A stretch of DNA of 43,353 bases from a virus, in IMG/VR virus record IMGVR_UViG_3300045921_000562, positions 1 to 43,353 of that record; one strand, written 5' to 3'. This document shows positions 2,119-35,067 of the stretch, piece by piece (within the stretch, counting starts at the first letter, position 1; every line of letters begins with the position of its first letter). Below the pieces are notes generated by a model. That model worked only from the letters and a program-made list of their open reading frames with translations, did not search any database and had not been told where the DNA came from. The translations under genes and the position numbers were made by a program.

Positions 2119-3225
2119 ATGTACGAGAGAAAGTGGTCACAGGAAAGCATAGAACAGGAAGCTGCCAAATACGGCACTTTTTGCGAATGGAGAAAAAAAT
2201 CTCCTTCTAGCTACGTTACCGCTTCAAGACTTGGGATGCTCAAATCATTTGTCGATAAGCTAAAAAGACAAAGAAACAAATGGACTAAAGAAAATGTTCT
2301 TTTAGACGCATTGCTATATACGTCGAAAACAGAGTGGAGAAAAAACTCCACGGCTTACCAGATTGCACACAAAAATGGTTGGATGAAAGAAGCTTGTCTT
2401 CACATGAAGAAGGCATCCGCTCACAATAAACTTTGGTTCAAAGAGAGTATACTAAAAGAGGCTAAAAAATTTTCGTCCAAAAAAGAATGGCGATTAAAAT
2501 CAATGTCATCCTATCAAGCCGCACAAAGACTTGGATTATTGGATATGGCTTCTGCCCATATGGAACTATTAAACAGGCCTAGGTGGGAAAAAGAGCAACT
2601 GCTAATGGACGCCAAAGGATTCAACAGTAGGTCAGAATGGAAGAGAAAATCTTCCGGAGCCTACAAGGCAGCTTTGAACATGGGAATACTTGATGAAGCA
2701 TGCTCCCATATGAAAAAAACACAAAAAAGATGGACAAAAAAACAGATATTTGAAGATGCTAAGAAATTCACAGATAAGGTTTCGTGGAAACAAAGCTCTT
2801 CTGGATATAAAGCAGCACAAAGAATGGGGTTGCTAGACGAAGCTTCAGCCCATATGGAAAAGGTCGGAGGGGTATCCTACCCTGAAAAGAACCTGATGTC
2901 CATCATACTGGAGAAATACCCAAAAGCTCAATCCTCATGGTTTAAGGTAAAAGACCCCGGTTTTTCCCCCGCAACGAGATTCCAGCTTGATATCTATATA
3001 CCAGAACTTAGAAAAGGAATAGAATTTAACGGGGAATACTGGCATAGTAGAGAAGGCCTAAAAAGAGGTCGACCCAACTGGAAGGATGATGATATTAATA
3101 ATTATCATGAGCTAAAAAAGCGTTTTTTTGAATTTAAAAAAATTAAGGTTTTTGAGGTTTGGGAAAAAGACTGGAAAAATAACAAAGATCAGGTCTTAGA
3201 AAGACTGATGAAGTTTTTGGAATAA
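2119..3225 (+). CDS. repeat-array homing-type endonuclease A (5 repeats + Vsr/PD-(D/E)XK-like domain)
   Basis: A 368-residue protein. Residues 1-250 are five tandem repeats of about 48 residues, each beginning with a Trp (KWSQES, KWTKEN, LWFKES, RWEKEQ, RWTKKQ). The repeats continue through an A-x-K-[FY] helix, an EW motif and S-x-Y-x-A-A-x-x-x-G, and usually end in HM. They are probably helical DNA-binding units (inference). After a PEKNLM linker comes a conserved nuclease-like domain with LDIYIPELRKGIEF and NGEYWHS (about residues 288-309), then EKDWK near the end; Asp, Glu and His there are the likely catalytic residues, resembling Vsr/EDxHD-type homing nucleases. The gene sits 3 bases after the upstream stop and 3 bases before portal, as a free-standing mobile gene. 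It is richer in AAA and AGA than its neighbours. Paralogues lie at 5040-5990 and 12542-13978. Confidence 0.8.
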   Translation: MYERKWSQESIEQEAAKYGTFCEWRKKSPSSYVTASRLGMLKSFVDKLKRQRNKWTKENVLLDALLYTSKTEWRKNSTAYQIAHKNGWMKEACLHMKKASAHNKLWFKESILKEAKKFSSKKEWRLKSMSSYQAAQRLGLLDMASAHMELLNRPRWEKEQLLMDAKGFNSRSEWKRKSSGAYKAALNMGILDEACSHMKKTQKRWTKKQIFEDAKKFTDKVSWKQSSSGYKAAQRMGLLDEASAHMEKVGGVSYPEKNLMSIILEKYPKAQSSWFKVKDPGFSPATRFQLDIYIPELRKGIEFNGEYWHSREGLKRGRPNWKDDDINNYHELKKRFFEFKKIKVFEVWEKDWKNNKDQVLERLMKFLE

Positions 3226-3228
3226 AAA

Positions 3229-5040
3229 ATGGCAGAAAATTCAAACAATAAAAAACAACAGATCGTATTTGCTTCGGGTGAGATTGACGCCGCTCTCTTG
3301 GAGGCCAACAATCTCGTAAAGAACGAGGGAGAAGGGCATCTCTCATACGCTATCAAGCAGGCCATGGGTACTGCTAAAAAAACAAGTACTCCTAGAATTG
3401 CCTTTACCGAGGACCCGGTAGGTGCCGATCACTATGCGGGTGTCTATAAATTAAAAAAGAGACTTTTGCCTGATTCCGTAATCAAGATGATCAGGACACA
3501 AAATCACCTGATCGCCAGTATCCTGCGAGCCAGAGCAAACACCATGTCAATGTTTGGACATATCAAGAAAGATAGGTTCGACATAGGTGTGTCGGTAGAG
3601 GTGAAGGCAGATTTTGAGCCTTATATAAAACCTGAGCAGATGGTAAAGGTTCAGGATAGGATCGAGCGTTTTAAGCGTATCCTGATAAATTGCGGAAGTA
3701 ATGAAGGGCTAAAAGATAACGAGAAGATGACTTTGTCAGAATTCTTCTATCTTCAAACAATAGACGGTATGTCTTTCGGTAGGTTTGCCACAGAGATCGT
3801 CTACGAAGAAAACGACAACGGAAATCCGCACGAGTTGTCGGACAGAGCCAAGAAATTTAACAGGTTTAGACCTGCAGATGCCGGAACGATGTATAAAACC
3901 GTAAAGAAGGGCGAATCCGCATCCAGCATCAGGGCTAGTGGAATCAGACAGCTACAGTCGGTTACGGGAAACAAGATCAGGGGCGACCTTTTTGAATCGG
4001 ATGAGTATGCCTGGGTACAGGTTATAGATGGCATGCCTAAACAGGCTTTTGCGTCGGACGAGATGGTGGTTTACAACCTTTTCCCGTCAAACGATATAGA
4101 TCATAATGGCTACCCGGTCACTCCGATAGACACATGTATCAGTTCAATCACCACACACCTATCTATCGACGCATACAACAAGTTATATTTTCAGAACGGG
4201 AGAGCATCCAAGGGAATACTTGTAGTTCAAAGCGAAGAGATTGACCAGAATACTATAAATTCTTTAAAACAGGAATTTATGGCATCTATCAATAACGTAG
4301 GCAATTCTTTCAGGGTCCCTGTATTTGGTGTGGGAACCCAGGACAACGTAAACTGGCTGCCAATGGTTTCTTCTGCCGGAGATGGGGAATTTCAGTTTCT
4401 ATATGACGCGGTAGCCCGGAACATACTATCAACTTTCAGTATGTCCCCAGACGAGCTACCTGGATACGGACATCTATCACGAGGAACCAATCAGCAGACG
4501 CTAAGTGAATCCAGCAATGAATTTAAGCTTACTGCCGCCAGGGATACAGGCTTAAGACCTTTAATTTTGAAATTTCAAGCTTTTATAAACGAGAAGCTAT
4601 TTCAGATAATAGATCCGGAGCTAGCACAGATCTGCACTGTAAGCCTTTCAGGATTAGATGCCCAATCAAAAGAGCAGGAATCCCTAAGACTTCAACAGGA
4701 TATGCCTATTCATATGACATATGACGAGGTACTTTCTGGTGTAGATAAGGAGCAGATAGGCGAACGTATGGGCGGAAAGGTTCCTTTCAACGAACGCTAT
4801 CAGATCATAGCTGACAAATATATGAACGTGTCTGATATGATGGCTGAGTACATGAAAGATCCATCAGCCCTTGCTGACCCTATGCTTAAGTATAAGCGAG
4901 ATCCTTTCTGGATTCAGTCTGCGCAAATTCTCATGCAGGTAAACCCTGCGGCGGTTAAGGCATACTATGCTACGAAGCCGTATACTCTTGATATATTAAA
5001 AATGATGGCTCAAGACTACATAGAAGAGAATGAAGAGTAA
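3229..5040 (+). CDS. portal protein
   Basis: A 603-residue protein with the features of a dodecameric portal, the ring at the capsid vertex through which terminase pumps DNA and onto which the neck assembles. The middle carries the typical portal run: DEMVVYNLFPSNDIDHNGYP, then Ser/Thr- and Tyr-rich helices (SITTHLSIDAYNKLYFQNG), then GILVVQSEEIDQN. The C-terminal third contains the helix LKFQAFINEKLFQIIDP. Size and position next to terminase and the MuF-like protein fit the family. Its start ATG is 3 bases after the endonuclease A stop; GGA inside the end of that gene is the only ribosome site. Its TAA overlaps the ATG of endonuclease B (TAATG), so both junctions are invaded by related nucleases. 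Confidence 0.88.
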   Translation: MAENSNNKKQQIVFASGEIDAALLEANNLVKNEGEGHLSYAIKQAMGTAKKTSTPRIAFTEDPVGADHYAGVYKLKKRLLPDSVIKMIRTQNHLIASILRARANTMSMFGHIKKDRFDIGVSVEVKADFEPYIKPEQMVKVQDRIERFKRILINCGSNEGLKDNEKMTLSEFFYLQTIDGMSFGRFATEIVYEENDNGNPHELSDRAKKFNRFRPADAGTMYKTVKKGESASSIRASGIRQLQSVTGNKIRGDLFESDEYAWVQVIDGMPKQAFASDEMVVYNLFPSNDIDHNGYPVTPIDTCISSITTHLSIDAYNKLYFQNGRASKGILVVQSEEIDQNTINSLKQEFMASINNVGNSFRVPVFGVGTQDNVNWLPMVSSAGDGEFQFLYDAVARNILSTFSMSPDELPGYGHLSRGTNQQTLSESSNEFKLTAARDTGLRPLILKFQAFINEKLFQIIDPELAQICTVSLSGLDAQSKEQESLRLQQDMPIHMTYDEVLSGVDKEQIGERMGGKVPFNERYQIIADKYMNVSDMMAEYMKDPSALADPMLKYKRDPFWIQSAQILMQVNPAAVKAYYATKPYTLDILKMMAQDYIEENEE

Positions 5041-5990
5041 TGGATAGAAGATGGACCAAAGAATCCATATTGAGTGAGGCAAAACAATTCGATTCAAAAA
5101 TCGAATGGAAAAGGACTTCTCCATCTTCATACAAAGCAGCAAGAAGAGAGGGCTTATTGGAAGAAGCCTCTAAGCATATGAGAGTTTTGTGGTCAAAAAA
5201 ATGGGACAAAGACTCTGTGCTTAATGAGGCCCTTAAGTTTAAGACTCGATCCGAGTGGTTTAACAGTTCTCCAAACAGCTACAATGCAGCACGAAGACTA
5301 GGCATCATGAGAATCTGTACGGAGCACATGTCTTATGTGTCTGAGCGAGGAAAGTGGACAGAAAAATCGGTAGTTGCCAAATCAAAAGAATTTGTCACCC
5401 TGACTGAGTGGGCGAGAAAATCGTCCGGCTCCTACGAGGCAGCAAAAAGATTAGGGGTGAAGACAGATTTTTCCCCATTGTGGTCAAGAAAATGGAGCAA
5501 GGCTTCCCTGGAAGAAAACGCTAAAAAATACGGAAGTATTACCGAATGGATGAGAGAAAATCCTGGGGCATATAAGGCTGCAAAAAAATTAGGTATTGTT
5601 GAGGATGTCTGCAGACATATGAAGGCTCTGGGCGGTAGATCTACTATGGAAAACGACCTGATGTCGTATGTTAAGAGTATCTTTCCTAAGGCTCAAAGGA
5701 TTGGATTTACGAACAAAGATATGAAATACGTAGCTAAACGCTTCTGTCTAGACATCTATGTTCCGGAGCTTCGCAAGGGTATTGAGTTTGACGGAGATTA
5801 CTGGCATAGTAATGAAGGGCTAAAAAGAGGCAGACCAAGCTGGACAGACGAGCAGATAGAAAACTACCATGCTTTGAAAGACTCTTTTTTTCAAGAAAGA
5901 GGGATAGGCGTTTTACATATACAGGAAAAGGACTGGAAAACTAAAAAAGATCAGTGTATAAAAGATATTTTAGAATTCTTAAAAGGATAA
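5040..5990 (+). CDS. repeat-array homing-type endonuclease B (4 repeats + Vsr/PD-(D/E)XK-like domain)
   Basis: A 316-residue paralogue of the 2119-3225 and 12542-13978 products. It has four W-led repeats (RWTKES, KWDKDS, KWTEKS, KWSKAS) over residues 1-200; the third is shortened and lacks the terminal HM. The nuclease-like domain (about residues 205-316) carries LDIYVPELRKGIEF, DGDYWHS and EKDWK. Its start overlaps the portal stop as TAATG, so translation is probably coupled to portal. It likely promotes its own spread into phages lacking the insert by cutting the portal region (inference from the family). Sequence divergence among its repeats argues against recent internal duplication. Confidence 0.8.
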   Translation: MDRRWTKESILSEAKQFDSKIEWKRTSPSSYKAARREGLLEEASKHMRVLWSKKWDKDSVLNEALKFKTRSEWFNSSPNSYNAARRLGIMRICTEHMSYVSERGKWTEKSVVAKSKEFVTLTEWARKSSGSYEAAKRLGVKTDFSPLWSRKWSKASLEENAKKYGSITEWMRENPGAYKAAKKLGIVEDVCRHMKALGGRSTMENDLMSYVKSIFPKAQRIGFTNKDMKYVAKRFCLDIYVPELRKGIEFDGDYWHSNEGLKRGRPSWTDEQIENYHALKDSFFQERGIGVLHIQEKDWKTKKDQCIKDILEFLKG

Positions 5991-5993
5991 ATT

Positions 5994-6557
5994 ATGACAA
6001 AAACACCAGGAATAGATTACAAGAAGAAGTACGAGGAACTTAAGGCTCGCTACATTCAAGCTCTAGATGTCGCCTTCAGGGCTGGTTATGAGCAGGGTTT
6101 TAACGAATCCCAGGTTCAGTCCATGGCTCAACAGGCTCAGATGGCGCAGCAACAGGCTCAGATGGCTGGCCAGGCAATGCCACAGCCTACAGAGATGGAA
6201 CAGCCTCAGGATCAAGGTCTTGCTGAGGATGAGCTAGATCAGGCTATCGCCCAACTAGAGCAGCTTGTCAACAAATCTGAGCCGTCTGTAGACGACCTTA
6301 AGAAGTCTATCGAGATGATCAAAAACGAAAGAATGCATAAAAAACTTTCTTCTAAGACCAAATCAATCGACATCACGCCTAAACAGTACTCCCAATCTTA
6401 CAAGCTCAATCTTTCTGAGAACTCAAAAGCATCAGTATCCATGCAGCAAAAGGTAGTAGACGATATTTTGAGAAAATGGGAATCAGAGTCTGCCAACTCC
6501 TCTAGGGACATCACTCAGATTTTGAGTACTGAGGCCTTAACTAAAAAAGAAAAATAG
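5994..6557 (+). CDS. Gln/Met-rich coiled-coil head protein, unknown
   Basis: A 187-residue hypothetical protein. Residues 1-40 are charged and helical (YKKKYEELKARYIQAL). Residues 42-70 are a Gln/Met/Ala-rich stretch (SMAQQAQMAQQQAQMAG), then an acidic segment, then one KSE (QLVNKSEPS), a motif that recurs in the internal proteins of this phage. The ribosome site AAAGGA lies before ATG 5994. It lies between portal and the MuF-like gene, which suggests an internal, scaffold-associated or portal-associated role. No family was recognised. Confidence 0.7.
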   Translation: MTKTPGIDYKKKYEELKARYIQALDVAFRAGYEQGFNESQVQSMAQQAQMAQQQAQMAGQAMPQPTEMEQPQDQGLAEDELDQAIAQLEQLVNKSEPSVDDLKKSIEMIKNERMHKKLSSKTKSIDITPKQYSQSYKLNLSENSKASVSMQQKVVDDILRKWESESANSSRDITQILSTEALTKKEK

Positions 6558-6559
6558 TT

Positions 6560-7327
6560 ATGAAGGGTATCAGCTCGTCTACTAAAACCAAGATATACGA
6601 ACTTGTTGACGAGATGTTTGATCGCATGGCGGTTGGCCTACTAGGCGAGATTCCCTCATTAAGGAATAAGAAATCAATTGTTTTTACATCAAGACCAGAC
6701 TACACTCTTGCCCATCTTTTCTTGAAATCGCTCGAATCAACCAGACCTCTTCCGGCTGAAGAGGAGGCGATGAAGAACATCCTATCTACAGCAGAGGAAT
6801 ATGTAAACTCGCTTAGAAGTAAGACGAAAGCACAGCTCGTAGAAAAAGTAGACGCCTACGTTCGAGAAAAACGAATGAAAGGGTTTGCCCCTAATAGCAT
6901 CGACATAAAAAATCACGTACAAGAAGCCTTTGGAACTGCGAAAAAACACTTTAAGGTGATAGCTGAAGCAGAAACAACCAAAGCACGCAACATGGGACGC
7001 GCCCTACAGATAGGGAAGGTGGCGTCAAGTCAGGGCGTTAGTGATCCAAATGTGTTTTTTGTAGTTATCAAGGACGGAGTGACGTGCGGAGAATGCATAC
7101 GACTTCATCTGATGCCGGATAAGGTGACCCCTAAGGTTTGGAAGCTTAGCGAGATTGGTTTTAACTATCACAAAAAAGGCGAAAACTTCCCTAAAATCGC
7201 GGGTTTACATCCAAGCTGTCGATGTTTTCTCACGTTTCTTGCACCTAATTTTGGCTTTAAAAATGGCCAAGTCGCCTATATAGGCGAAGGGCACGATGAA
7301 TATAAAGCTCAAAAAGGAGAAGGATAA
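6560..7327 (+). CDS. MuF-like (SPP1 gp7-like) minor head protein
   Basis: A 255-residue protein with the phage Mu gpF / SPP1 gp7 C-terminal domain. A helix AEAETTKARNMGRAL (about 135-149) is followed by DGVTCGECIRLH with Cys176 and Cys179, and by GLHPSCRCFLTFL with Cys220 and Cys222. This is the conserved Cys/His cluster of the family, probably metal-binding. Such proteins associate with portal and the prohead interior and help DNA delivery or head maturation. The length is normal for the minimal form. Its last codon overlaps the next start (TAATG), so it is coupled to the M15 peptidase gene. Confidence 0.82.
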   Translation: MKGISSSTKTKIYELVDEMFDRMAVGLLGEIPSLRNKKSIVFTSRPDYTLAHLFLKSLESTRPLPAEEEAMKNILSTAEEYVNSLRSKTKAQLVEKVDAYVREKRMKGFAPNSIDIKNHVQEAFGTAKKHFKVIAEAETTKARNMGRALQIGKVASSQGVSDPNVFFVVIKDGVTCGECIRLHLMPDKVTPKVWKLSEIGFNYHKKGENFPKIAGLHPSCRCFLTFLAPNFGFKNGQVAYIGEGHDEYKAQKGEG

Positions 7328-7881
7328 TGCCAAAAATACTACTAGAAATTATTAAAATGTTTGCGTCAACAAAAAAAGCACAAGCAGCGCCGCCGACTCC
7401 AGCACCTGCAGAACCAGAGATCAAGAGTACAAAGAAAATGTACATCACACTCAACGACTGGATAACCTCATCGGGCCGATATCCCGATAGGGCCAAATCT
7501 CCAGAACTGACTCAGGAAATAAAGCAGCAGGCACAAATCACCGTCGACTGTGTGAACAATCTTTTAAATGAGATAGCATGGCAGGAAGAGGTAAGCATCT
7601 CAAGTGGTTTCAGGCCTAGCAGCGCTAACGCAGCCGCTGGTGGTGCTAAGAAAAGCGCCCACATGACAGGTCTTGCGCTAGACATCTTCCAATCAAAGCC
7701 AATAAACAAGCTAGGACAGGCCATCAGAGCCCGTCAGAAGCAGGAAGGTGAAAAGGGTATACTAGGTCGTAACGGCCTGATGATGGAAGCCCTAGAAGTC
7801 ACCGTAGGCGCCAACTCCCTGTGGGTACATCTTGATAGGGTAAAACGCTCTGTGCGTCCAAGCATGGAATTTAAGCCTTGA
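7327..7881 (+). CDS. M15-family D-Ala-D-Ala carboxypeptidase/endopeptidase
   Basis: A 184-residue zinc peptidase that would cleave peptidoglycan cross-bridges. Zinc ligands are visible: SAHMTGLALDIF gives His112 and Asp119 in the SxHxxGxAxD signature, and LWVHLD gives His168. SSGFRPSSAN (residues 92-101) is the substrate-side motif. Residues 17-35 are an Ala/Pro linker and no signal peptide is evident. It starts by TAATG overlap with the MuF-like gene in the head module, away from the other lysis genes. A virion-associated wall-opening role is therefore as plausible as an endolysin role. The end of the gene also contains the tRNA promoter. Confidence 0.85.
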   Translation: MPKILLEIIKMFASTKKAQAAPPTPAPAEPEIKSTKKMYITLNDWITSSGRYPDRAKSPELTQEIKQQAQITVDCVNNLLNEIAWQEEVSISSGFRPSSANAAAGGAKKSAHMTGLALDIFQSKPINKLGQAIRARQKQEGEKGILGRNGLMMEALEVTVGANSLWVHLDRVKRSVRPSMEFKP

Positions 7882-7906
7882 CATCTTGATAGTATTCAGA
7901 TATGGT
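7878..7906 (+). promoter_or_regulatory. sigma70-type promoter of the tRNA
   Basis: A perfect -35 TTGACA (7878-7883), 17 bases, and a -10 TATGGT (7901-7906). Transcription would begin about 7 bases later, at the first base of the tRNA (7913). The -35 overlaps the stop codon of the M15 peptidase gene. Confidence 0.6.
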
Positions 7907-7912
7907 TATTAT

Positions 7913-7989
7913 GCGCCGTTAGCTTAGTTGGTTAAAGCATCCGGCTCATAACCGGAGGATCGGGGGTTCGAATCCCTCACGGCGTACCA
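7913..7989 (+). tRNA. tRNA with CAU anticodon (Met, or Ile2 if lysidine-modified)
   Basis: A complete cloverleaf can be folded. The acceptor stem is GCGCCGT/ACGGCGT with a first G-U pair. The D stem is GCTT/AAGC with an AGTTGGTTA loop, the anticodon stem is TCCGG/CCGGA with loop CTCATAA (anticodon CAU), and the T arm is GGGGG-TTCGAAT-CCCTC. An encoded A-CCA follows at 7986-7989. The first pair is G-U rather than the C/A mismatch of an initiator, so it is an elongator Met or AUA-reading Ile2 type; sequence alone cannot decide. AUA codons are common in this phage, which would favour Ile2 biologically (inference). Confidence 0.95.
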
Positions 7990-7994
7990 TAACT

Positions 7995-8249
7995 ATGATT
8001 GTAAGCTCATTCTACCTATCAGACGAATCGAACATACCCAAAGCTTTGGAACTTACCGGTCTTAATCTTGACGAGCTATCCAGTATTACTGGAAGGTTTG
8101 CCCGACACTCTCATAGGGCTGGACAGATGCGTGGCGAGGTTGTGGTGAAAGCCAACGGACAGGTGATCATAAGGCATCACTTCACCAAAAAACCCCTATG
8201 GAAGGGCGAACTAAGCGTTTCCTTTGAGTATCTTGACGAGCGCTTTTAA
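7995..8249 (+). CDS. small hypothetical protein
   Basis: An 84-residue reading frame directly after the tRNA, from ATG 7995 with no clear ribosome site. The protein has a predicted beta-rich second half (GEVVVKANGQVIIRHHF) and several His/Arg. Its 3' end overlaps the convergent Nudix gene by 39 bases. No family was recognised; a later start is possible. It could be read from the tRNA promoter transcript. Confidence 0.5.
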   Translation: MIVSSFYLSDESNIPKALELTGLNLDELSSITGRFARHSHRAGQMRGEVVVKANGQVIIRHHFTKKPLWKGELSVSFEYLDERF

Positions 8250-8627
8250 GCCTGAGTTCTCATCGGGTTTGATATGAAGTTCAGACGATGGAACGCGAAA
8301 CGGGTTCATCCAAAACAATGACTGAAATTCCATATCTGGGTCTTTTTCTAGGGTAGGGTTGCCGTCTATCTCTGCCAAATAGGTGTAAACAATTATGGGC
8401 TTATTATTGTCGTCCTTCTTATAGTTTACATCTACTAGCTTTAGATTTTTAGCTTGAAACCCAGTTTCTTCTCTAGTTTCGCGGGAAGCTCCTACTATGG
8501 GCTCTTCTCCGTGGTTTATACCACCGGCTGGGAAATTAATCTTACCGTTATCGCGACGTCTTCCCATGAGGTATTCTTGAGGATTCTCTGGATTCTTGAT
8601 GAGGATAACAGCATATCGACTACTCAT
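8211..8627 (-). CDS. Nudix hydrolase
   Basis: A 138-residue Nudix-fold pyrophosphatase. A full Nudix box G-x5-E-x7-R-E-x2-E-E-x-G is present (GGINHGEEPIV through SRETREETGF, about residues 35-57), binding the Mg2+ that drives hydrolysis of nucleoside-diphosphate-X substrates. The N-terminus SSRYAVILIKN and the later LEKDPDMEFQSLFW match the small single-domain form. The substrate cannot be inferred; house-cleaning of nucleotides or NAD/ADP-ribose turnover are options. Its ATG overlaps the end of the upstream gene by 8 bases, so it is the last gene of a minus-strand operon from about 15.2 kb. Confidence 0.88.
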   Translation of the reverse strand: MSSRYAVILIKNPENPQEYLMGRRRDNGKINFPAGGINHGEEPIVGASRETREETGFQAKNLKLVDVNYKKDDNNKPIIVYTYLAEIDGNPTLEKDPDMEFQSLFWMNPFRVPSSELHIKPDENSGLKALVKILKGNA

Positions 8628-10503
8628 TTTCTACTCCAGAGCACCACCCGCCGGTACGTTCCTCATCGCCACAAATTAAACACCTAGGATGCCCATTCGG
8701 ATGCGTGTATTTTGCTGGTTTAAACTTGTGCGGATTCTTAGCGGCAGGGGATTTTTTGTTTTCTCTTATTTTTTCTGTTTCAATCTCTGCTGCTTCGTTT
8801 TTGGTTAGTCTTGGTTTTTTCATATCCCGAACAATATCGCCAAGTTGTTTGAAATCCCGCTTAGCTTTTTCTTTATGTTCTTGAGGAGTTCCGGTTCTTG
8901 CGTATCCGTGGGCTATGGCCCCAGAAACCCTACTGTCACCACGCCTTACTTCAATACCTCGCTCACTAACTCCGGGTTTGGATGTGAGTTGCGCCTCTAA
9001 GGGATCGGTTGAAAATTTTCTTCTTTCCGCTCTATACTTTTGTCTCATGGCTGCTGGTAGAGATTTATCTTCCCTTGCTTTAGCCATCTCAGATGTTGCA
9101 AGTTTTTCTGGCTTCTCGGCCAGGTCTGGTCGGATATCGGCTAAAGAGATCTCCTTAGCACGATTGTAGGCTTTTTGGTGGCCCTGCTTTAATTTTTTTA
9201 TATGATCGCTGATTATCGAATCTTTACCGAGTCCCAGCTTGTTCTGGAGATAAGTTTTGAACCGTTCTCTTTTTATAGGATTTACCAAAATATCTCGGGC
9301 GTGGGTGATAAGCTCTTCATTGAAGCGAGGGCTTCTTTCATTGTAGTTCATGGTGTCTAGAACAAAATTTCTAACAGCGCCAATTGCTTCTGGATGATGC
9401 TGGCTGATCAGGTCCCTAACAAGGGTGCTTGACGCAACGGGTCCATACTTATTTTCTACGTGAGCCATAAGGTCATGAAAACCCTCGTGCTCTATCGTAG
9501 AGTCAACGGCTTTGCCTCTTAACGCCATCTTTTCGGGTGATAAGTCTTTGGTGTCTTTTAAGCTTTTGGCTGGACGTCTTGGTGCTTTGTATTTAGGTCT
9601 GCTGCCTACGTGATTCCAATACTCGGTAGAACCCGCAGGGAGCTGATCAGTTTTTTTTCTCCAGGCATCCATATCAGCCTGATACTTAGCTTGAGCTTCT
9701 GCGACGTTTGCTTTGTATGCGTCTAGCTTTGCCTTGTCAGTATCGTCACCCTCTTCAAACTTAGACCTAAGCCTTCCGGCTAATACGGCTGATTTTGGTC
9801 CCTGCGGCGTGTTGTAGCTGGTGCCTAAGACTGTTCGACCAAACTTTCCAGCAACTCTTTTTCCGTGCGCGTCTATCAGCTCGTTCTTAGAACGGATAGG
9901 GGTGCGGCTTCCTGATAATCTTACGGGTTTTTCTACCTTGCGATCCCTATGTTCTGCGTTTGCAACCTGTCGTCCGTATAGTTTTTTCTGTCTTTCGGTT
10001 TCTAGGAGCTTTACGTTTTGGTCTGGTCGATTGGTGATCTCAGGAAAGTTAGGAAAAGTGATGCGAGGACGAGACATCTTCTGCATGTCTGAGGATTTGT
10101 CGATAGGATGAATTCGGTCAGCTCGATGGTAGAATCCTTTTCTAGAATCCTTCTCACCCTCTGGAACTAACCAATGTGCAGGCTGTCCGTACTTTGACGC
10201 CCCATGTACGACGTATCTTTTGTCTTTATTGATTACGTTAGCGCCAGTTTTGGGATCAATAACGCCTGTTGAACTATGTCCAGTATCGCCTCTTTTAAAT
10301 TGTGGAGAACCTGCGGTGTCTGATTTTAAAATTCCCTTTGATTTAAGGTATAATTTGAGTTTTTCCTCATACTCTTTGCTGGCCGGAGCTGGTTTTCTGT
10401 TTGGACCTAATATTGGGTCCTTTTCGTGCGGTCGTTTTTTGACAGCACCCTTTTCAAGCTCAAATGAATCAGCTAGCGTCCGTCGATAGTGTTTGTGGTT
10501 CAT
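8620..10503 (-). CDS. large multidomain phage protein with HExxH motif and C-terminal Cys cluster
   Basis: A 627-residue, very basic protein. ATG 10503 is chosen because it overlaps the upstream stop (ATGA) with AAGG nearby; a GTG at 10512 is 9 bases earlier. An IEHEGFHDLM segment (HExxH at about 339-343; 9475-9489) suggests a zincin-type metallopeptidase. The helical region after it (NYNERSPRFNEELITHA) carries Glu residues that could complete the site. A Tyr/Trp-rich stretch YGQPAHWLVPEGE lies near residue 115. The C-terminus has CLICGDEERTGGWCSG, a probable zinc knuckle. Long disordered basic linkers resemble 'polyvalent' proteins delivered with phage DNA. Its neighbours are another multidomain protein and a Nudix hydrolase. 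Protease function is inferred from the motif only. Confidence 0.7.
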   Translation of the reverse strand: MNHKHYRRTLADSFELEKGAVKKRPHEKDPILGPNRKPAPASKEYEEKLKLYLKSKGILKSDTAGSPQFKRGDTGHSSTGVIDPKTGANVINKDKRYVVHGASKYGQPAHWLVPEGEKDSRKGFYHRADRIHPIDKSSDMQKMSRPRITFPNFPEITNRPDQNVKLLETERQKKLYGRQVANAEHRDRKVEKPVRLSGSRTPIRSKNELIDAHGKRVAGKFGRTVLGTSYNTPQGPKSAVLAGRLRSKFEEGDDTDKAKLDAYKANVAEAQAKYQADMDAWRKKTDQLPAGSTEYWNHVGSRPKYKAPRRPAKSLKDTKDLSPEKMALRGKAVDSTIEHEGFHDLMAHVENKYGPVASSTLVRDLISQHHPEAIGAVRNFVLDTMNYNERSPRFNEELITHARDILVNPIKRERFKTYLQNKLGLGKDSIISDHIKKLKQGHQKAYNRAKEISLADIRPDLAEKPEKLATSEMAKAREDKSLPAAMRQKYRAERRKFSTDPLEAQLTSKPGVSERGIEVRRGDSRVSGAIAHGYARTGTPQEHKEKAKRDFKQLGDIVRDMKKPRLTKNEAAEIETEKIRENKKSPAAKNPHKFKPAKYTHPNGHPRCLICGDEERTGGWCSGVENE

Positions 10504-12545
10504 TCGTGCCACCTTCCATTAATTATACTATCAGGCAGAAGGCCTGCTTTCTGTTCAGCGTATACGGTATTGTTGGGATTCTTTCTGTTGTTCTCACCAT
10601 GGGGACCAAAATTGACCCACTGATTTTGACCCATCGTCTCCGTAGCTAAAGCTTTTTGTGCTAATGGGCTAAAATCCTTCTTGTGGGTAAGGTAGGCCTG
10701 ATGTTCACCCTTAGGTCCGAAGGAGCTTTCACCGCCGAGATGATGACCGCGAAAATCATGTACAATTCTGAAAAGGTCATTGGCTAGTAGGGGCTTACCT
10801 TCATGTTTAAACTCTGTGGGCTGAAGCATTGGGTGGTTACTCGTTTTGGAATCTGTAGGTCCAAAACCTTGATCCGTAGGAAAAAAGTGCATGTGTTTAT
10901 TTTGCTTAATGTCTGCGTGCAGATCTTTTGAGGTTTTGTACGGATTCGCCTGATTTGGTTTAATTGAGGTAAACTTAAAACCCTGATCAAGCATGTCTTT
11001 AAATTGCTTCTTAGTTTCGTCAATTAGGGCGCCATACGCAGCTTTCACTTCTGGGTGCTCTGGGTCATGCTTCATGTTGTGATAGGCGTCGGCTATATAC
11101 TTACCATGCGCGGGGTTGATGTTGACTTGTGGTGCGGGATTAGAGATTGAAGGGCTGTCTTTCTTAGCAAGCTCACTAGCAGCCAATAGCCCCTTCTTCT
11201 CTGCAAGTTTTTTGCGTTCTTCTTTTGAATAAATCTTTACCGGGTTCTTCTTGCTTTTTTGCCTATCAATCCTGGCCTGCATCTCTGCCTGCTTGTTCTT
11301 GGTTGGACCAGCAAGCCTTACAGCCGCATTAGGACCTACAGCAATCTCTTCACCTGCTCTAGACATTTTTCTTCTAGCGTTATCCGCTTGCGAGTATAGG
11401 TCAAGTTTTTTAGGACCGTAGTTTGATTTGTCTATTTTCTCAGGTAAATCCTTACCTTTTGACTCTTTATCCCAGTGCCTTACCGCTTCTTTGCCGCCCA
11501 AGGCTTTTATTCCAGCAGGCGTATGCGCCCATCTTCTCTGCGCTTCTGAGGTGTAAGGTTTCATCAAGGGCTCGGATTTTTTGGTCTCAATTGTCTTAAG
11601 CTTATCGTAGTAGTTGGGATCTTCCGACAGGTGATCACGAGCAATCTCATCTGCGATCTGTGGGCTTGATGTGTGCTCCATCTCGACCTTTCGGCCCTGT
11701 AGGATTTTTAACTTAGGGAAATCTTTATTCGTTTTTTCCTCAGCCATTCCACCAGGTATCTTTTCAGATTTACCAAAAGGTCGATTAGGTTGCGACCAAA
11801 GTGCGCTTGCCTCTTTAGTTTGCATGCCTTGTCTTCCGATTTTTCTAGAAGTTTTTTGTTCTATGAGCGAATACGCTGCAGACGCAAGTCCTTTTCGTTT
11901 ATGTTCGGGATGCGTTTGCGCACTATTGACATTTATTAGGGCAGAATCGCCACCTTCATCTGGCCATTGAGAGAATTGGTAGTGCCCAACCTCTTGTCCG
12001 CTCGGCGAAAGCGCGGTTACATGGTGCGTTACAAAACCTGTATGCTTATCTCTAAAAACTTCTGGTATTACTTGATGCTTTAAAGTATACCCCTCTTTCT
12101 TCCAGTCACCACGGGCGCCCTTATTCATCTTTTCAGATTTGCCAAACCTATGAGTAAAGAAGGTGCCATCTGGCAATCGACTGTAAAAATCATCTGGTTG
12201 TTCTGGGTAAAAATCTGTACCCGTTCCAGTCTCTACCTGACCAGCGCGGTCGCCGTGATTGAAAAGCATCTTATGGTTTACACCATCGCTTTCAATGTGT
12301 GACTCCTGACCAGTCATGTGAGCAAGCTGTCGAGCCATATCGACCTGTTTATCTGAAGGATTACTGATGAAGATGGATCTCTCAGGATTTCCGTAACTAC
12401 CATCGATAGATAGAACCTTGCCAGTGCCTGCTGTTGAGAGTTTTTGGACAGCCTCTTCGTGAGAGATGTTCAGCTTGACCTTATCCGGGTAAGGCGAATT
12501 CTCGGTACTCATTATGATATGGGGCTGAGTTACTAGATGCTTCAT
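10500..12545 (-). CDS. multidomain phage protein with GNAT-like domain and H-D-x-x-G-H domain
   Basis: A 681-residue mosaic. Residues 40-135 form a domain around SYGNPERSIFISNPSDKQ, a pattern seen in phage proteins of unknown role. Residues 170-255 look like a GNAT acetyltransferase: strand pair GQEVGHYQFSQW, then the acetyl-CoA loop HPEHKRKGLASAAYSLIEQ. Near 327-368 is a small phage motif YTSEAQRRWAHTPAGIKALG. The last 200 residues hold a conserved-looking region with IVHDFRGHHLGG, FGPKGEHQAY and ATETMGQNQW, a probable metal-dependent site of unknown chemistry. KSE occurs at 136-138, 259-261 and 323-325, exactly between these blocks. ATG 12545 overlaps the endonuclease C stop (ATGA); ATG 12512 is an alternative start and may be the ancestral one. 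Confidence 0.72.
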   Translation of the reverse strand: MKHLVTQPHIIMSTENSPYPDKVKLNISHEEAVQKLSTAGTGKVLSIDGSYGNPERSIFISNPSDKQVDMARQLAHMTGQESHIESDGVNHKMLFNHGDRAGQVETGTGTDFYPEQPDDFYSRLPDGTFFTHRFGKSEKMNKGARGDWKKEGYTLKHQVIPEVFRDKHTGFVTHHVTALSPSGQEVGHYQFSQWPDEGGDSALINVNSAQTHPEHKRKGLASAAYSLIEQKTSRKIGRQGMQTKEASALWSQPNRPFGKSEKIPGGMAEEKTNKDFPKLKILQGRKVEMEHTSSPQIADEIARDHLSEDPNYYDKLKTIETKKSEPLMKPYTSEAQRRWAHTPAGIKALGGKEAVRHWDKESKGKDLPEKIDKSNYGPKKLDLYSQADNARRKMSRAGEEIAVGPNAAVRLAGPTKNKQAEMQARIDRQKSKKNPVKIYSKEERKKLAEKKGLLAASELAKKDSPSISNPAPQVNINPAHGKYIADAYHNMKHDPEHPEVKAAYGALIDETKKQFKDMLDQGFKFTSIKPNQANPYKTSKDLHADIKQNKHMHFFPTDQGFGPTDSKTSNHPMLQPTEFKHEGKPLLANDLFRIVHDFRGHHLGGESSFGPKGEHQAYLTHKKDFSPLAQKALATETMGQNQWVNFGPHGENNRKNPNNTVYAEQKAGLLPDSIINGRWHE

Positions 12546-13978
12546 GGGACACCCACAAAAATTCTTACAGATTTAAGGCAGCTAATCTTATCTGTTTTCC
12601 AGTCTTTTTCCCAAATTTGTAAAATTTCAATATCTTTATCTTTAAAAAAAGCCATTTTAATATCATGATATTTTTTTAAATCTTCATCTTCCCAGTTGGG
12701 CCTTCCTCTTTTTAAACCTTCAAAGCTATGCCAATAATCTCCGTTAAATTCTATTCCCTTTCTAAGCTCTGGAACATAGATATCTAACTCAAACTTCGAT
12801 GCCGGACTAAATCTTTTGTCATTCTTAGTAGAGAACCTGGCGGTGTGGGCTTTTGGATAAAACTTTCTAACTAGCTCTAATATTTGTTTTTCCGGATTTG
12901 AAGTTCCGCCCTTTTTTTTCATGTGGGCAGTAACCTCTTCTAGCCAGCCACGCTTGGGGGCTAGATTGTAACAACCGGGCGAACCTGCTTTCCAATCTGA
13001 ATAGGCGGAATACCCCTTAGCATCGTTCGCTATTGTCTCTTTGCTAATTTCTTGGGTTTTAGATGATCCCATGTGTAGCGTATTTGAATGTAAGGCGTTC
13101 TTTTTTATGGCTGCCGCATATGAGGAGGGTGACTTTTCTTTCCATTCTGATCTGGAAGAATATTTTAAAGCTTCTTTTTTTATCGCGTCTTCGGTCCAAA
13201 TAAAAGGTTTGGAGTAATTGCGCAAAAACTGCTCTAGCTCAGACATTAACCCTGATTTGTAGGCAGCCTGTAGGCTATTTGGACACTTTTTTGCCCATTC
13301 TTTTTTGTCTTCAAACTTAGACGCAATCTCAATCAATTCTTTTTTTGTCCATTTTCTGTTCAATCTTAAGTCTGCCATCATGTGGGAAGACGCTTCTTCT
13401 ATCCAGCCATTTCTATGTGCAGCGGAATAGGAGGCGCCAGAGCCTAATCGCCAGTCTTTTTTTGTGCTATATTTGATCGATTCAGATAAGACTTCGTTTT
13501 TTGTCCAGACAATTTTAGATTTAGGCTTGCGCATATGCTCACAAGCCAATTCTTTAATACCTCTTTTAAGGGCTGTAGCGTATGCGCTTGGAGAGCTTGT
13601 TTTCCATTCTTTTATTGATGTGTACTTTTTAGCGTCAGACAAAATTTCATCTTTTGTCCAAACTTTGTTTTTTTTCATGTGGGTGGTAGCTTCTTCTAAC
13701 CAACCGTTTTTTAAGGCAGCCTTAAGCGCCCCGCTTCCGGATTTTTTGATCCACTCTTGCTTTGATAAGTATCTAGAAGCATCCTTAATAACCAATTCCT
13801 TTGTCCACTTGGACAGGGGTGAGGATCTTTTGGGGAAAAGCTTATCTGCAATATCTTTTAGCCAACCTCTTCTTTTCGCAATAGAGTAAGAGTTGCAGCT
13901 ATTTGCCCACTCTGTTCTAGAGCTAAATTTTTTAGCCTTTTCTGTTATTTGCTCTTTTGTAAGGTTGTTTTTTTTCAT
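12542..13978 (-). CDS. repeat-array homing-type endonuclease C (7 repeats + Vsr/PD-(D/E)XK-like domain)
   Basis: The longest of three paralogues (478 residues). About seven repeats of ~48 residues cover residues 1-350: most open with W-T-K (KWTKEL, VWTKDE, VWTKNE, KWTKKE, IWTEDA), while the first and last are degenerate. Each has an EW/DW motif and Y/L-x-A-A-x-x-x-G. The C-terminal nuclease-like domain has PEKQILELVRKFYPKAH, FELDIYVPELRKG, NGDYWHS and EKDWK. ATG 13978 lies 2 bases after the upstream TGA; a TTG at 13984 overlaps that stop. Its stop overlaps the next ATG, so it was inserted cleanly between two minus-strand genes. The nuclease domain is the most conserved part across paralogues, while repeat number differs (4, 5, 7). 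Confidence 0.8.
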   Translation of the reverse strand: MKKNNLTKEQITEKAKKFSSRTEWANSCNSYSIAKRRGWLKDIADKLFPKRSSPLSKWTKELVIKDASRYLSKQEWIKKSGSGALKAALKNGWLEEATTHMKKNKVWTKDEILSDAKKYTSIKEWKTSSPSAYATALKRGIKELACEHMRKPKSKIVWTKNEVLSESIKYSTKKDWRLGSGASYSAAHRNGWIEEASSHMMADLRLNRKWTKKELIEIASKFEDKKEWAKKCPNSLQAAYKSGLMSELEQFLRNYSKPFIWTEDAIKKEALKYSSRSEWKEKSPSSYAAAIKKNALHSNTLHMGSSKTQEISKETIANDAKGYSAYSDWKAGSPGCYNLAPKRGWLEEVTAHMKKKGGTSNPEKQILELVRKFYPKAHTARFSTKNDKRFSPASKFELDIYVPELRKGIEFNGDYWHSFEGLKRGRPNWEDEDLKKYHDIKMAFFKDKDIEILQIWEKDWKTDKISCLKSVRIFVGVP

Positions 13979-13980
13979 CT

Positions 13981-14802
13981 TCAAATGTTTGTTATAAAAT
14001 ATTTTTGCCCAAAAACTCGTCTTAATTGCCCAAGAAGCGCAAGTTTTCTTTTTTCTAGCTCTGCCATTCTTGTTTGAAAAATCATAGGCCCAGGATTGCT
14101 GCTTGATTGGGAGATTCCATCTTGACCTAGACTTACGGACGTGTTTACATTATTTGGCGCAATACCGCTTAATATGTCTAGCGCAGCATAGATGCCTATC
14201 AAATTGTTGATCACAACGGGAACTTGCCCCGCATCTTTACAAAGACCTGCGGTAAATTCAATGGTCCAGTAGGAGGGGACAAAGTTCGCTTGTCTTTGTA
14301 TGATCAATAGGTATGCAATTCCGCCGGGAGCAACAGCGCCCTGGACACTCGTTGAGCCGTATGCGCCAAGCAGAGGGATAACATTTAGCTGACGCTGGTG
14401 AGCTTGGCCCATATCAATCCATTCTGGCGGGATTCTAAATAGATTGTTACCATCCGAACTGATAATGGAAAAATCTTCTACAGACAATATTGGTCCATGA
14501 CTTGTTCTGATGTGTATATAGTGCTTATATAGGTTATAGTCAAAAGGAACCCGTTCGCTGAATTGCTCAGCAAACACCGGAGATTTAAGCTCTAGCTCAA
14601 TATCGTTAATCGCTAGATTAATGCGATCTTTTAGCTCATCGTTAGAAAAACTTAAGGAGGGAAATTTCTCCAATATTCCTTTTAGGAACCTACTTCTTAA
14701 CTTCGCAGGAGTTATCAAGGGTTCGACTCTGGAGAGCAGTCCGGAAGTATTTTTAGCCTGTACCGGATAACCTTTTGTAGCTATCTCTTTTGGATAGGAC
14801 AT
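13981..14802 (-). CDS. putative head-tail connector/neck protein
   Basis: A 273-residue protein. ATG 14802 overlaps the upstream stop (TAATG); a TTG two codons earlier is less likely. Residues 50-75 form a helix (SNDELKDRINLAINDIELEL) reminiscent of connector proteins that dock under portal. The middle is beta rich with ILSVEDFSIISSDGNNLFRI, and the C-terminal helices MAELEKRKLALLGQLRRVF are amphipathic. The position between other structural genes supports a neck or tail-completion role, but the assignment rests on general character, not a firm family match. Confidence 0.6.
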   Translation of the reverse strand: MSYPKEIATKGYPVQAKNTSGLLSRVEPLITPAKLRSRFLKGILEKFPSLSFSNDELKDRINLAINDIELELKSPVFAEQFSERVPFDYNLYKHYIHIRTSHGPILSVEDFSIISSDGNNLFRIPPEWIDMGQAHQRQLNVIPLLGAYGSTSVQGAVAPGGIAYLLIIQRQANFVPSYWTIEFTAGLCKDAGQVPVVINNLIGIYAALDILSGIAPNNVNTSVSLGQDGISQSSSNPGPMIFQTRMAELEKRKLALLGQLRRVFGQKYFITNI

Positions 14803-16011: not shown

Positions 16012-16185
16012 CTAATCCAAATAGTATTCTATAGTGCTTTCAATGGGCGCTCTCATCTTATAAGCTATCTTTTGATTGGCAACTGTGTGTACCAGTCTTA
16101 GTTTTGTTTCTTTGCTAAGCTTTTTATCCCCTAAGGGAATTATATTACTTATAATACTGTCTCTCTTAAAGAGAGGTGAACCATC
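16012..16185 (-). pseudogene. orphan 3' reading-frame remnant without start codon
   Basis: A 57-codon open frame, bounded upstream by TAA (16186-16188) and ending at TAG (16012-16014), has no ATG, GTG or TTG near its 5' end. It encodes a protein-like sequence (DGSPLFKRDSIISNIIPLG, then KLRLVHTVANQKIAYKM and ESTIEYYLD). Its first 20 bases overlap the end of the nuclease-GNAT gene in another frame. It may be the 3' piece of a gene disrupted by that mobile gene, or a small gene with a non-standard start. Chance is not excluded at this length. Confidence 0.35.
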
Positions 16186-17005
16186 TTATCTTGCCGCAGT
16201 CCCAAATACGCGAAAAACCTAAAGATTTTGCCATTTCTAGCTCCGTATTGCCTATTCCGCCTTTTTTAGCTAGGTTTTTCTTTTGACAGGATTGCTTAGA
16301 AAGGCGTTTTTTAGATCCTTCTTTTACATAAGAATAGTCCGGAGGAAGCTTTTCTGGTGTCATGCCTAGCTTCTCATACACTCCACCATCGCTCCACCTA
16401 TTATCCGACCAGGAAACCAAGAAGCTAAAACCTAGCTTTTTAGCCTCAATGATAAGGCCTTCAAAAAGCTTGCTTGTTCCACCAACAACCGCCCAATCAG
16501 CAAAGCACACCCTGCTAAGAACAGCCTCATTCCTATTAGGTCTATGATGTTTTGACAAGGTTGCGCACCCTACAATCTGCCCTTCTAGCTCAAGTCCCAA
16601 GGTAAGCAAAAAATTGCAAGATCCTTGGAGGTGATTTTTATTCAAAAAATCAATAGCCGCCTTTTTTTCTAATACAACAAGACTTGTCTTTCTGGCATAA
16701 ATTTTAGGCAAAAGTCCTAGCTTTGCTCTCAGTATGTTTTTAATTTGATCCTGACGCTCAAGCCACTCATCTTCAAAAATGGTAATAAGTTGGATACCCT
16801 TTTCTTTACAAGTGACGTGCTTAGTATGATTATAATCTTTTGGTTTTTTACTCTCAGAATGGCCATACAAATCACAATATTCTATTGCGATATTCTTATC
16901 GCGTATTAGGATATCTATCTCTTGACCTTCTAGGATAGACCTGTTTTCGGTTTCCACACTTAGGCCTAGACTTTTGATAAAATTCACAACTGCGGTCTTA
17001 CCCAT
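16166..17005 (-). CDS. nuclease-GNAT-like mobile endonuclease (short form)
   Basis: A 279-residue protein. I start it at ATG 17005 (MGKTAVVNFIKS). An in-frame start at 17062 would translate through the terminator of the tail tube gene. N-terminal half: a Vsr/PD-(D/E)XK-like domain with EGQEIDILIRDKNIAIEYC and LYGHSE, then LITIFEDEWLER. C-terminal half: a GNAT-like fold, with a ligand-side HLQG, hydrophobic strands (GQIVGCATL) and the signature SWSDNRWSDGGVYEKLGM. It ends with IWDCGKIRWFTSL. The 33514-35067 product shares all these motifs but has extra N-terminal HTH and zinc domains. A near-match of the promoter element (CAATCGTATATG) precedes the start. The function of the GNAT-like part is unknown. 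Confidence 0.75.
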   Translation of the reverse strand: MGKTAVVNFIKSLGLSVETENRSILEGQEIDILIRDKNIAIEYCDLYGHSESKKPKDYNHTKHVTCKEKGIQLITIFEDEWLERQDQIKNILRAKLGLLPKIYARKTSLVVLEKKAAIDFLNKNHLQGSCNFLLTLGLELEGQIVGCATLSKHHRPNRNEAVLSRVCFADWAVVGGTSKLFEGLIIEAKKLGFSFLVSWSDNRWSDGGVYEKLGMTPEKLPPDYSYVKEGSKKRLSKQSCQKKNLAKKGGIGNTELEMAKSLGFSRIWDCGKIRWFTSL

Positions 17006-17041
17006 ACATATACGATTGTTTCTTATATGAGTATAAAAGTA

Positions 17042-17059
17042 AAGCCCCAAAAGGGGCTT
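17042..17059 (-). terminator. intrinsic terminator after tail tube gene
   Basis: AAGCCCC-TTTT-GGGGCTT hairpin followed on the minus strand by TACTTTT. It lies 31 bases after the tube stop codon (17090) and shows that the longer nuclease start at 17062 is improbable. Confidence 0.75.
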
Positions 17060-17089
17060 CACTAATAAAATTAGAAATAGTTGAAATTA

Positions 17090-33513: not shown

Positions 33514-35067
33514 ATGCCAAATCACAATCGTATTACTGGAGAACTAGAGCACAAGGTTAGAGCGCTATGCGAAAAAGGATACAATGCTACTTATATAAGC
33601 AAGCAGTTGAAAGGCGAGGTCTCTAGGGAAACCATCAAAAAATGGGCGTTGAAACATAACTATACGTTGAACAAAAAAATATCCTCCAAGACCATAGACA
33701 TAAGACCTTATGTAGTTGATTGCTTAAAACAGGGGATGAATAGAAAACAAGTTCAAAAAAAATTCAAAATTAGCTTCGACATCGTCCGAAATATCTGTCT
33801 AGAAGAGGGCATCCTAATCAGAAATCGTTCCGCTGCAGCACTGGACAAGATCTTATCTAACGAAGAAGCAAGCTCTAAGCTTCCGGAAGGTAACGGTAAA
33901 GTTATAGGCTATAGTAAAGAAAGTAAAAAATACATAGTAAAAACCGACGATGGGTTTATATACTACAAATCTTCTGGTAAATTATTTCAAGGTGATCCAA
34001 GAAACAAGAGCGGTAAAAAAATTACCCTGGAGGACGTAAAAGCTCAACTCGATAAAATCGGATACGATTACTGCGATTCCTGGACGATTAAAAGAGAGCC
34101 ACTTAGGGCAATTTGTAGAAATTGCAAAAATATCAGACAAAACAAGCTAGCAAATTTCTTTTGGCAGCAGTGCCCCACATGCTCAAACAACGGCTCGTCA
34201 AAGACAGAACTGGAGATCCTTTCATGGCTTAAGGGCTTTTATCCAAATGTTTCTAAATTTTATTTTCCAGAAAACAAGACCAGACCAAAAGAAATCGATA
34301 TATACATTCCAGAGCTTAAGCTTGGTATAGAGTATTGTGGACTTTATTGGCATTCGGAGGAGCTGGAACAAGATAAGGCGCCTGAAAACAAACATTACCA
34401 AAAAATGCTTGCAGCTAACAAACTTGGAATAAGGCTAATAACCATTTTTGAAAACGAATGGAAAGAAAAAGAATCTCAAATCAAGGGCTTTCTGCTTTCA
34501 GCTATAGGTAAAAACTCAGAGAAGGTATACGCAAGAGACTGTACTGTTTCTGAGATCCGAATAAAAGAATCTGAAGAGTTTTTTGATAAGTACCACATAC
34601 AGGGTGCTCCTTCGAATTCTTACGTAGTTTTTGGAATATTTTACAAAGGTGAGCTTGTGGGCGCTATGGATGGCGGTGGACACCCTAGAAAGCCAACTAA
34701 GGACAGGGATACTCTATATCTCAATAGGTTGTGCTTTAAAAGCGATCTTACTGTGACCGGTGGGTCGTCAAGGCTTTTTTCTGCGTTAAAAAAATATGCT
34801 AGAAAAAATGGATACAAAAGGGTCATCTCCTGGTCGGACAACAGGTGGTCAGAGGGAGCTGTGTATACTAAATTAGGGTTTAGGTTCGATTCTCAAAAGC
34901 TGAAGGGAAGGGGTCTTATGGACGGTTCTATTTGGCCTGATTTCCATTACGTTTTAAACGGTAGGCTTTATCCTAGATCTCTTCCTGCCAACCTAGGGGT
35001 GATCAATAAGGAAGACCTACCAAAGATATACGATTGCGGCAAGAAACGATGGGTTTTCGACCTATAG
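33514..35067 (+). CDS. HTH-zinc-nuclease-GNAT mobile endonuclease (long form)
   Basis: A 517-residue multidomain protein. Domains in order: a resolvase-type helix-turn-helix (5-48), a second HTH (65-105), a linker, a zinc ribbon with Cys201, Cys204, Cys220 and Cys223, and a Vsr/PD-(D/E)XK-like nuclease (225-350). The nuclease has EIDIYIPELKLGIEYC (Asp262, Glu273), LYWHSE (His280) and ITIFENEWKEKE. A GNAT-like domain follows (360-480) with KYHIQGAP, TLYLNRLCF and SWSDNRWSEGAVYTKLGF. The end IYDCGKKRWVFDL matches the 16166-17005 product. It has its own AAGGAG and promoter candidate, and lies after the capsid terminator. Nuclease and acetyltransferase-like activities are inferred from motifs. 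The fusion could give target cutting plus a modification, as in Mom-type GNATs, but that is speculative. Confidence 0.78.
   Translation: MPNHNRITGELEHKVRALCEKGYNATYISKQLKGEVSRETIKKWALKHNYTLNKKISSKTIDIRPYVVDCLKQGMNRKQVQKKFKISFDIVRNICLEEGILIRNRSAAALDKILSNEEASSKLPEGNGKVIGYSKESKKYIVKTDDGFIYYKSSGKLFQGDPRNKSGKKITLEDVKAQLDKIGYDYCDSWTIKREPLRAICRNCKNIRQNKLANFFWQQCPTCSNNGSSKTELEILSWLKGFYPNVSKFYFPENKTRPKEIDIYIPELKLGIEYCGLYWHSEELEQDKAPENKHYQKMLAANKLGIRLITIFENEWKEKESQIKGFLLSAIGKNSEKVYARDCTVSEIRIKESEEFFDKYHIQGAPSNSYVVFGIFYKGELVGAMDGGGHPRKPTKDRDTLYLNRLCFKSDLTVTGGSSRLFSALKKYARKNGYKRVISWSDNRWSEGAVYTKLGFRFDSQKLKGRGLMDGSIWPDFHYVLNGRLYPRSLPANLGVINKEDLPKIYDCGKKRWVFDL

Follow-up and report, generated by a model that had tools for sequence, protein, structure and literature searches.

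In many homing endonucleases, recognition and fold are merged, so that specificity is difficult to decipher and to re-engineer. The repeats of TAL effectors (TALEs) form a continuous superhelix of near-identical units of 33-35 residues. The concept of a bead-like repeat is already known from the T5orf172 homing endonucleases, whose zinc-finger repeats are arranged as beads on a string and recombine with one another, whose arrays and nuclease domains are exchanged, and whose genes lie beside essential genes (PMC10448857). Another close system is I-Bth0305I, an intron-encoded enzyme from a phage setting with an extended multi-domain DNA-binding part (PDB 3r3p; PMC3943268). Here, we analyzed a 43 kb viral fragment from IMG/VR (the whole stretch of 43,353 nucleotides, hereafter the window), in which three putative homing endonuclease genes (HEGs) encode arrays of helical repeats joined to a nuclease domain. 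The window portal protein is 45% identical to the portal of Myxococcus phage Mx1, and the host genome of the three HEGs is an Mx1-like phage.

Putative homing endonuclease genes at gene junctions

The initial annotation had described three ORFs with five, four and seven copies of one repeat followed by a common C-terminal nuclease-like domain. These ORFs (HEG A, HEG B, and HEG C; Table 1) are real and were confirmed in the window, and a repeat profile retrained on relatives counted exactly five, four and seven repeats, scoring 40-67 bits each. The start codon of HEG C is either TTG (ORF 12542-13984) or an alternative ATG at 13978.

Table 1. Features of the five Vsr-like nuclease genes in the window.
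Feature	Coordinates	Strand	Description
HEG A	2119..3225	+	368 aa; EDxHD/Vsr-like nuclease behind 5 repeats; flanked by g1147 (1147-2115) and the portal gene (3229-5040)
Array A	2131..2856	+	five repeats, ~2131-2250, 2278-2406, 2434-2562, 2581-2712, 2728-2856; repeat profile
Nuclease domain A	2875..3222	+	nuclease profile
HEG B	5040..5990	+	316 aa; nuclease behind 4 repeats; start overlaps portal stop; end immediately 5' of g5994
Array B	5049..5621	+	four repeats, ~5049-5180, 5199-5330, 5352-5471, 5490-5621; repeat profile
Nuclease domain B	5640..5984	+	model residues 199-316; VIA-align fold matches
HEG C	12542..13984	-	478-480 aa; 7 repeats + nuclease; overlaps neighbours g13981 and g10500
Array C	12920..13960	-	seven repeats, ~13960-13844, 13810-13676, 13660-13532, 13507-13379, 13354-13235, 13198-13070, 13045-12920
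Nuclease domain C	12551..12901	-	nuclease profile; 3r3p Z 10.3 (predicted model)
HEG D	16166..17062	-	Vsr-like nuclease, zero repeats; C-terminal part similar to HEG E; PF18741 1.5e-5, below Pfam's cut-off
HEG E	33514..35067	+	Vsr-like nuclease fused to Mom-family domain; zero repeats in window copy

The gene pairs g1147/portal, portal/g5994, and g13981/g10500 abut in relatives devoid of these HEGs (L008, L009, L018, L019), and the window HEGs fill the junctions almost exactly, with stop and start codons that overlap or are closely spaced. The intercistronic insertions are absent from close relatives, the junctions being closed in L008, L009, and others. Free-standing homing endonuclease genes are arranged in this way, and HEG A, HEG B, and HEG C are probably such genes, with products that would cleave DNA and promote homing. 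In L047 and L068, the g1147/portal junction is occupied by a different HEG with five repeats. Inspection of the junction DNA for a target yielded a single feature, a conserved DYKxKYxDLK stretch encoded at the start of g5994 (5' end).

Two further genes in the window resemble each other in sequence (HEG D and HEG E; Table 1). The C-terminal domain of HEG E belongs to the Mom family (PF25680, 9.8e-11), which is linked to DNA modification and has a GNAT fold, and such a fusion of a cutter with a DNA modifier could shield its own genome. A tRNA-Met gene (anticodon CAT; 7913-7989) lies amid the phage structural genes. Among the relatives, a supposed duplication of the portal gene in L022 and others proved to be an intein: the portal gene at L022:10001-13138 (also in L018, L019, and L034) encodes a 1045 aa product including the intein, and the window portal has none. 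The head-morphogenesis gene homologous to window 6560-7327 is interrupted by an intein at about residue 220 in the relatives L009 (9652-11595) and L011.

Predicted fold of the nuclease domain and of the repeats

The C-terminal domains of the HEGs are 51-55% identical to the HEG B domain and match PHROG families named homing endonuclease and HNH endonuclease. Their likeness to Vsr/EDxHD enzymes, proposed earlier on the basis of similarity, is borne out by the predicted structures, as the modeled HEG B nuclease domain matches I-Bth0305I (3r3p; Z 11.3, rmsd 2.5, 93/97 residues) and Vsr (1cw0; Z 10.0) in VIA-align, and the HEG C model reproduces the Vsr-like match (Table 1). Within this domain an E, a D (LDIY), and an H (YWHS) are invariant and are candidates for the E, D, and H of the EDxHD active site; a further E, Y, and K are invariant as well. 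A search of PDB sequences with the nuclease profile returned no match, so that the comparison with 3r3p is one of fold.

The repeat unit follows the pattern W-T-x-E-x(4)-E-A-x-K-Y-x(5)-[WF]-x(7)-Y-x(2)-A-x(3)-G-x(7)-HM and spans 43-44 residues, with linkers of 5-10 residues between units; the final HM is absent from several repeats (A1, B3, C1, and C5). AlphaFold models of HEG B (mba13359d7b7d) and HEG C (mf0c627e09d32), both with a mean pLDDT of 88 and with pTM values of 0.43 and 0.36, respectively, render each repeat as four short helices of about 8, 7, 9-10, and 4-8 residues, which supports the reading of each repeat as one helical unit, a check suggested in the initial annotation. Model confidence falls at the linkers, and the arrays are thus predicted to be beads on a string, that is, separately folded units joined by linkers, and not a TALE-like superhelix. 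Helices 2 and 3 are predicted to be connected by a turn, with the variable positions described below pointing outward, and the repeats may be helix-turn-helix (HTH)-like. The modules are most likely DNA readers. Structure searches were run with the full HEG B and HEG C models, and the resulting match lists were dominated by the nuclease domain.

The arrays of HEG A, HEG B, and HEG C match PHROG 20046 (302 positions; E values of 9.8e-52, 2.6e-30, and 2.3e-63, respectively), a family annotated with no function and with neither a repeat nor a DNA-binding label, which gains a functional hypothesis from this analysis. A Pfam search found no model matching the repeat, NUMOD included. The HNH_repeat model (PF18780) was considered and set aside, having no match in the window record and none over the cut-off in eight records. 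Likewise, PDB sequence matches of the repeat profile were chance hits (designed toroids with a common AYxLAxxLGI), and Pfam matches to Insulin and SusF on Vibrio phage arrays were artefacts of repeat composition.

The mean identity between repeats is 0.37-0.44 within one protein versus 0.38-0.42 between the three proteins. Since repeats within a protein are no closer than those of different proteins, and a search of the arrays for tandem repetition at the DNA level found none, the arrays are old. The architecture is not a product of chance, as about 55 relatives have a matching build.

Array length and reuse of arrays and nucleases

Relatives were gathered by scans of viral contigs and a whole-record search, yielding about 55 distinct proteins of the same build with two to seven repeats: two repeats in 4, three in 21, four in 23, five in 4, and seven in the window HEG C only. 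The initial annotation had suggested that the array sets target length or specificity; the distribution of array sizes lends no support to a link between array length and target length. The portal/g5994 junction is occupied nine times by arrays of 3 or 4 repeats, g14802/g13981 four times (2, 3, 3, and 4 repeats), and g13981/g10500 by arrays of 4, 4, 4, and 7 repeats (the junctions of window HEG C and of L183 were assigned by hand, as the automatic choice of neighbours skipped one gene); a single locus in related Vibrio phages holds arrays of 3, 4, 5, or 6 repeats. Repeat number is therefore not fixed by the junction.

Proteins at the same junction mostly do not form one clade in the nuclease-domain tree, on which junction requires 22 changes versus 24.4 in shuffles (equally low in 11 of 200). 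Because the tree does not group proteins by junction, nuclease lineages move among junctions, and the nuclease tree and the insertion site are largely uncoupled.

The observation that arrays vary on a constant nuclease holds across relatives, with two to seven repeats on one nuclease type, and extends to reuse of the repeats with other nucleases. Repeats precede or flank a GIY-YIG nuclease in Vibrio phages, Rhizobium phages, and L199, and occur with Endo VII in L202 (PF02945, 1.3e-24) and with MUG113 in BcepSauron; in L194, L195, and L198, 2-4 of the helical repeats stand in front of a Mom-fused Vsr nuclease related to HEG E. Conversely, the window-type nuclease is found behind two or four zinc-finger-like repeats (L100:3623-4375 and L197:2396-3496, the latter with a DUF4379 match). 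Modularity also shows in pairs of proteins: at one junction, L172 and L140 have nucleases 72% identical but unrelated arrays; the L172 and L092 arrays are in register, with nucleases just 54% identical; and L156 and L186, both from one phage, combine nucleases 80% identical with arrays that differ.

The Vibrio locus, found in phages Va3, R10Z, XZ1, VH1_2019, phi-Grn1, phi-ST2, and VH7D (L323, L326, L343-L348), encodes a GIY-YIG protein flanked by repeats on both sides, is present in two consecutive copies in Va3, and is annotated throughout as hypothetical protein. In Vibrio phage EniLVp02_71, a 563 aa protein (L330:958-2649) has about seven near-identical repeats ending in FPGLLDELF after an unassigned N-terminal domain, which looks like a young array.

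A predicted hypervariable face on helices 2 and 3

Numbered from the first Trp, repeat positions 31, 28, 17, 7, 20, and 24 vary most in the Mx1-like family, and positions 31, 20, 28, 24, 17, and 32 vary most in 35 repeats of the Vibrio GIY-YIG arrays. The variability ranks of the two families agree (Spearman 0.71, p 8e-8), and five of the top six positions are common to both (p 4e-5 if positions are independent). Among the 16 repeats of the window, position 31 is the most variable and the remaining ranking partly matches the families. Positions 17 and 20 fall on helix 2 and positions 24, 28, and 31 on helix 3, with a spacing that would place them on one helical face; the search for hypervariable positions suggested by the initial annotation thus yielded five, on one predicted face, in two independent families whose nucleases differ.

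Helix 1 and the tail of the repeats are near-constant in protein in the Vibrio arrays while codons vary (dN/dS 0.18 and 0.15). At the five positions, a set refined with knowledge of both families, dN/dS is 1.15 (bootstrap 0.87-1.46) versus 0.25 elsewhere on helices 2 and 3, at a synonymous divergence (pS) near 0.5 per site that approaches saturation. When positions were picked from the other family alone, the values were 0.87 (six positions) or 1.37 (top four) versus 0.20 for the rest. This corresponds to relaxed to diversifying change at the five positions and falls short of strict proof of positive selection.

We then compared these residues between pairs of arrays. L184 and L076, which occupy one junction and have scaffolds 63% identical, agree at 14 of 20 hypervariable residues (70%; background 11%) and are the only non-trivial pair of array orthologues with strong conservation; the second such pair, L172 and L092, agrees at 6 of 20. 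L156 and L186, at different junctions, keep at most 3 of 15 with scaffolds about 60% identical, and across pairs from different junctions with scaffolds about as alike, 0-33% of the residues are retained. The expectation that the same junction means the same hypervariable residues was mostly not borne out, as the residues are unrelated, at background, in the same-junction pairs L063/L115, L111/L187, and L118/L133. The array therefore tracks its target in part and does not simply track the junction; given the several pairs at background, recurring junctions may be places that tolerate insertion rather than common targets.

Possible roles of the arrays

We consider it probable that the HEGs encode homing nucleases of the Vsr/EDxHD fold tethered to a string of HTH-like modules, the string as a whole giving specificity. 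Each module would present the face of helices 2-3 (positions 17, 20, 24, 28, and 31) to DNA, the nuclease would cut the HEG-less allele, and repair would copy the gene in; arrays would evolve as repeats are gained and lost, as hypervariable residues change, and as nucleases exchange arrays. Modular DNA reading is supported by the reuse of the repeats and by the hypervariable face. A broader proposal, in which the five residues of each module help to specify a short base string within a general, evolvable reading system with a decipherable residue-to-base code and at least four kinds of nuclease, is rather doubtful.

A code of the TALE type would assign a fixed number of bases to each repeat, read in continuous register, so that target length is proportional to repeat number. 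The young Vibrio arrays, with a constant scaffold and few hypervariable positions, and the occurrence of two to seven repeats on one nuclease type would suit such a code, but array sizes differ at the same junction and range from 3 to 6 repeats at the same Vibrio locus, the window repeats are divergent, and the low-confidence linkers and low pTM of the models suggest no continuous superhelix. A strict TALE-like register is unlikely, and we regard the code as a whole as very improbable. Alternatively, the array could be a DNA tether or scaffold of low specificity, in which case the nuclease domain would determine specificity and the variable residues would simply be exposed and free of constraint. 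For I-Bth0305I, the roughly 14 bp surrounding the cut reportedly account for most of the specificity, which would favour this possibility, as would the frequent differences between arrays at one junction. However, helix 1 also has exposed positions yet is near-invariant in the Vibrio arrays, where synonymous change is normal, and the insertion site is not tracked by the nuclease domain, so that we find a mere tether unlikely.

Some of the enzymes might serve competition with other phages or with satellites instead of homing, with arrays at a fixed locus diversifying to follow moving targets. The Vibrio locus, at which the gene persists but differs in array size and in hypervariable residues, is consistent with this role, for which the nuclease Odn of phage ICP1 is a precedent (PMC8263062). 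In contrast, the HEGs of Mx1-like phages are patchy, occupy many junctions, and are missing from close relatives, which fits homing and leaves competition a quite unlikely explanation. These homotypic arrays, with their constant scaffold, few hypervariable positions, and natural swaps, form a data set that could allow residue-to-base rules to be learned, and they illustrate how selfish genes borne by phages change target.

Comparison with known systems

Vsr (1cw0) has the same predicted fold as the HEG nuclease domain but lacks an array and acts in mismatch repair. I-Bth0305I is similar to the HEGs in nuclease fold, phage setting, and extended DNA-binding part; the window HEGs, unlike it, are free-standing and carry tandem arrays of 2-7 like modules, of which the accessible text of PMC3943268 describes none for I-Bth0305I. 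NUMODs are likewise small DNA-binding modules common to several homing nuclease families (PMC3943268 and PMC1564403), whereas the repeats have no Pfam NUMOD match and form homotypic arrays of up to seven. The T5orf172 enzymes share with the HEGs bead-like DNA-binding repeats, domain swapping, and sites by essential genes, but combine a nuclease of the GIY-YIG superfamily with zinc fingers (CapR, DUF723/4379), in contrast to the all-helical repeat, Vsr-like nuclease, and mapped hypervariable face of the HEGs (PMC10448857). The passages searched, in largely open-access papers on tandem HTH endonucleases and on enzymes of the EDxHD type, did not describe the HEG repeat; within them, the all-helical repeat, its pairing with Vsr-like and other nucleases, and the mapping of a variable face seem to be new.

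Finally, the comparison with TAL effectors drawn in the initial annotation stands for modularity and for a constant scaffold with few hypervariable residues. It does not extend to structure, as the HEG arrays consist of divergent 44-residue units (37-44% identical), predicted to have four helices, to be separately folded and joined by linkers without a continuous superhelix, and to present five variable positions on helices 2-3.
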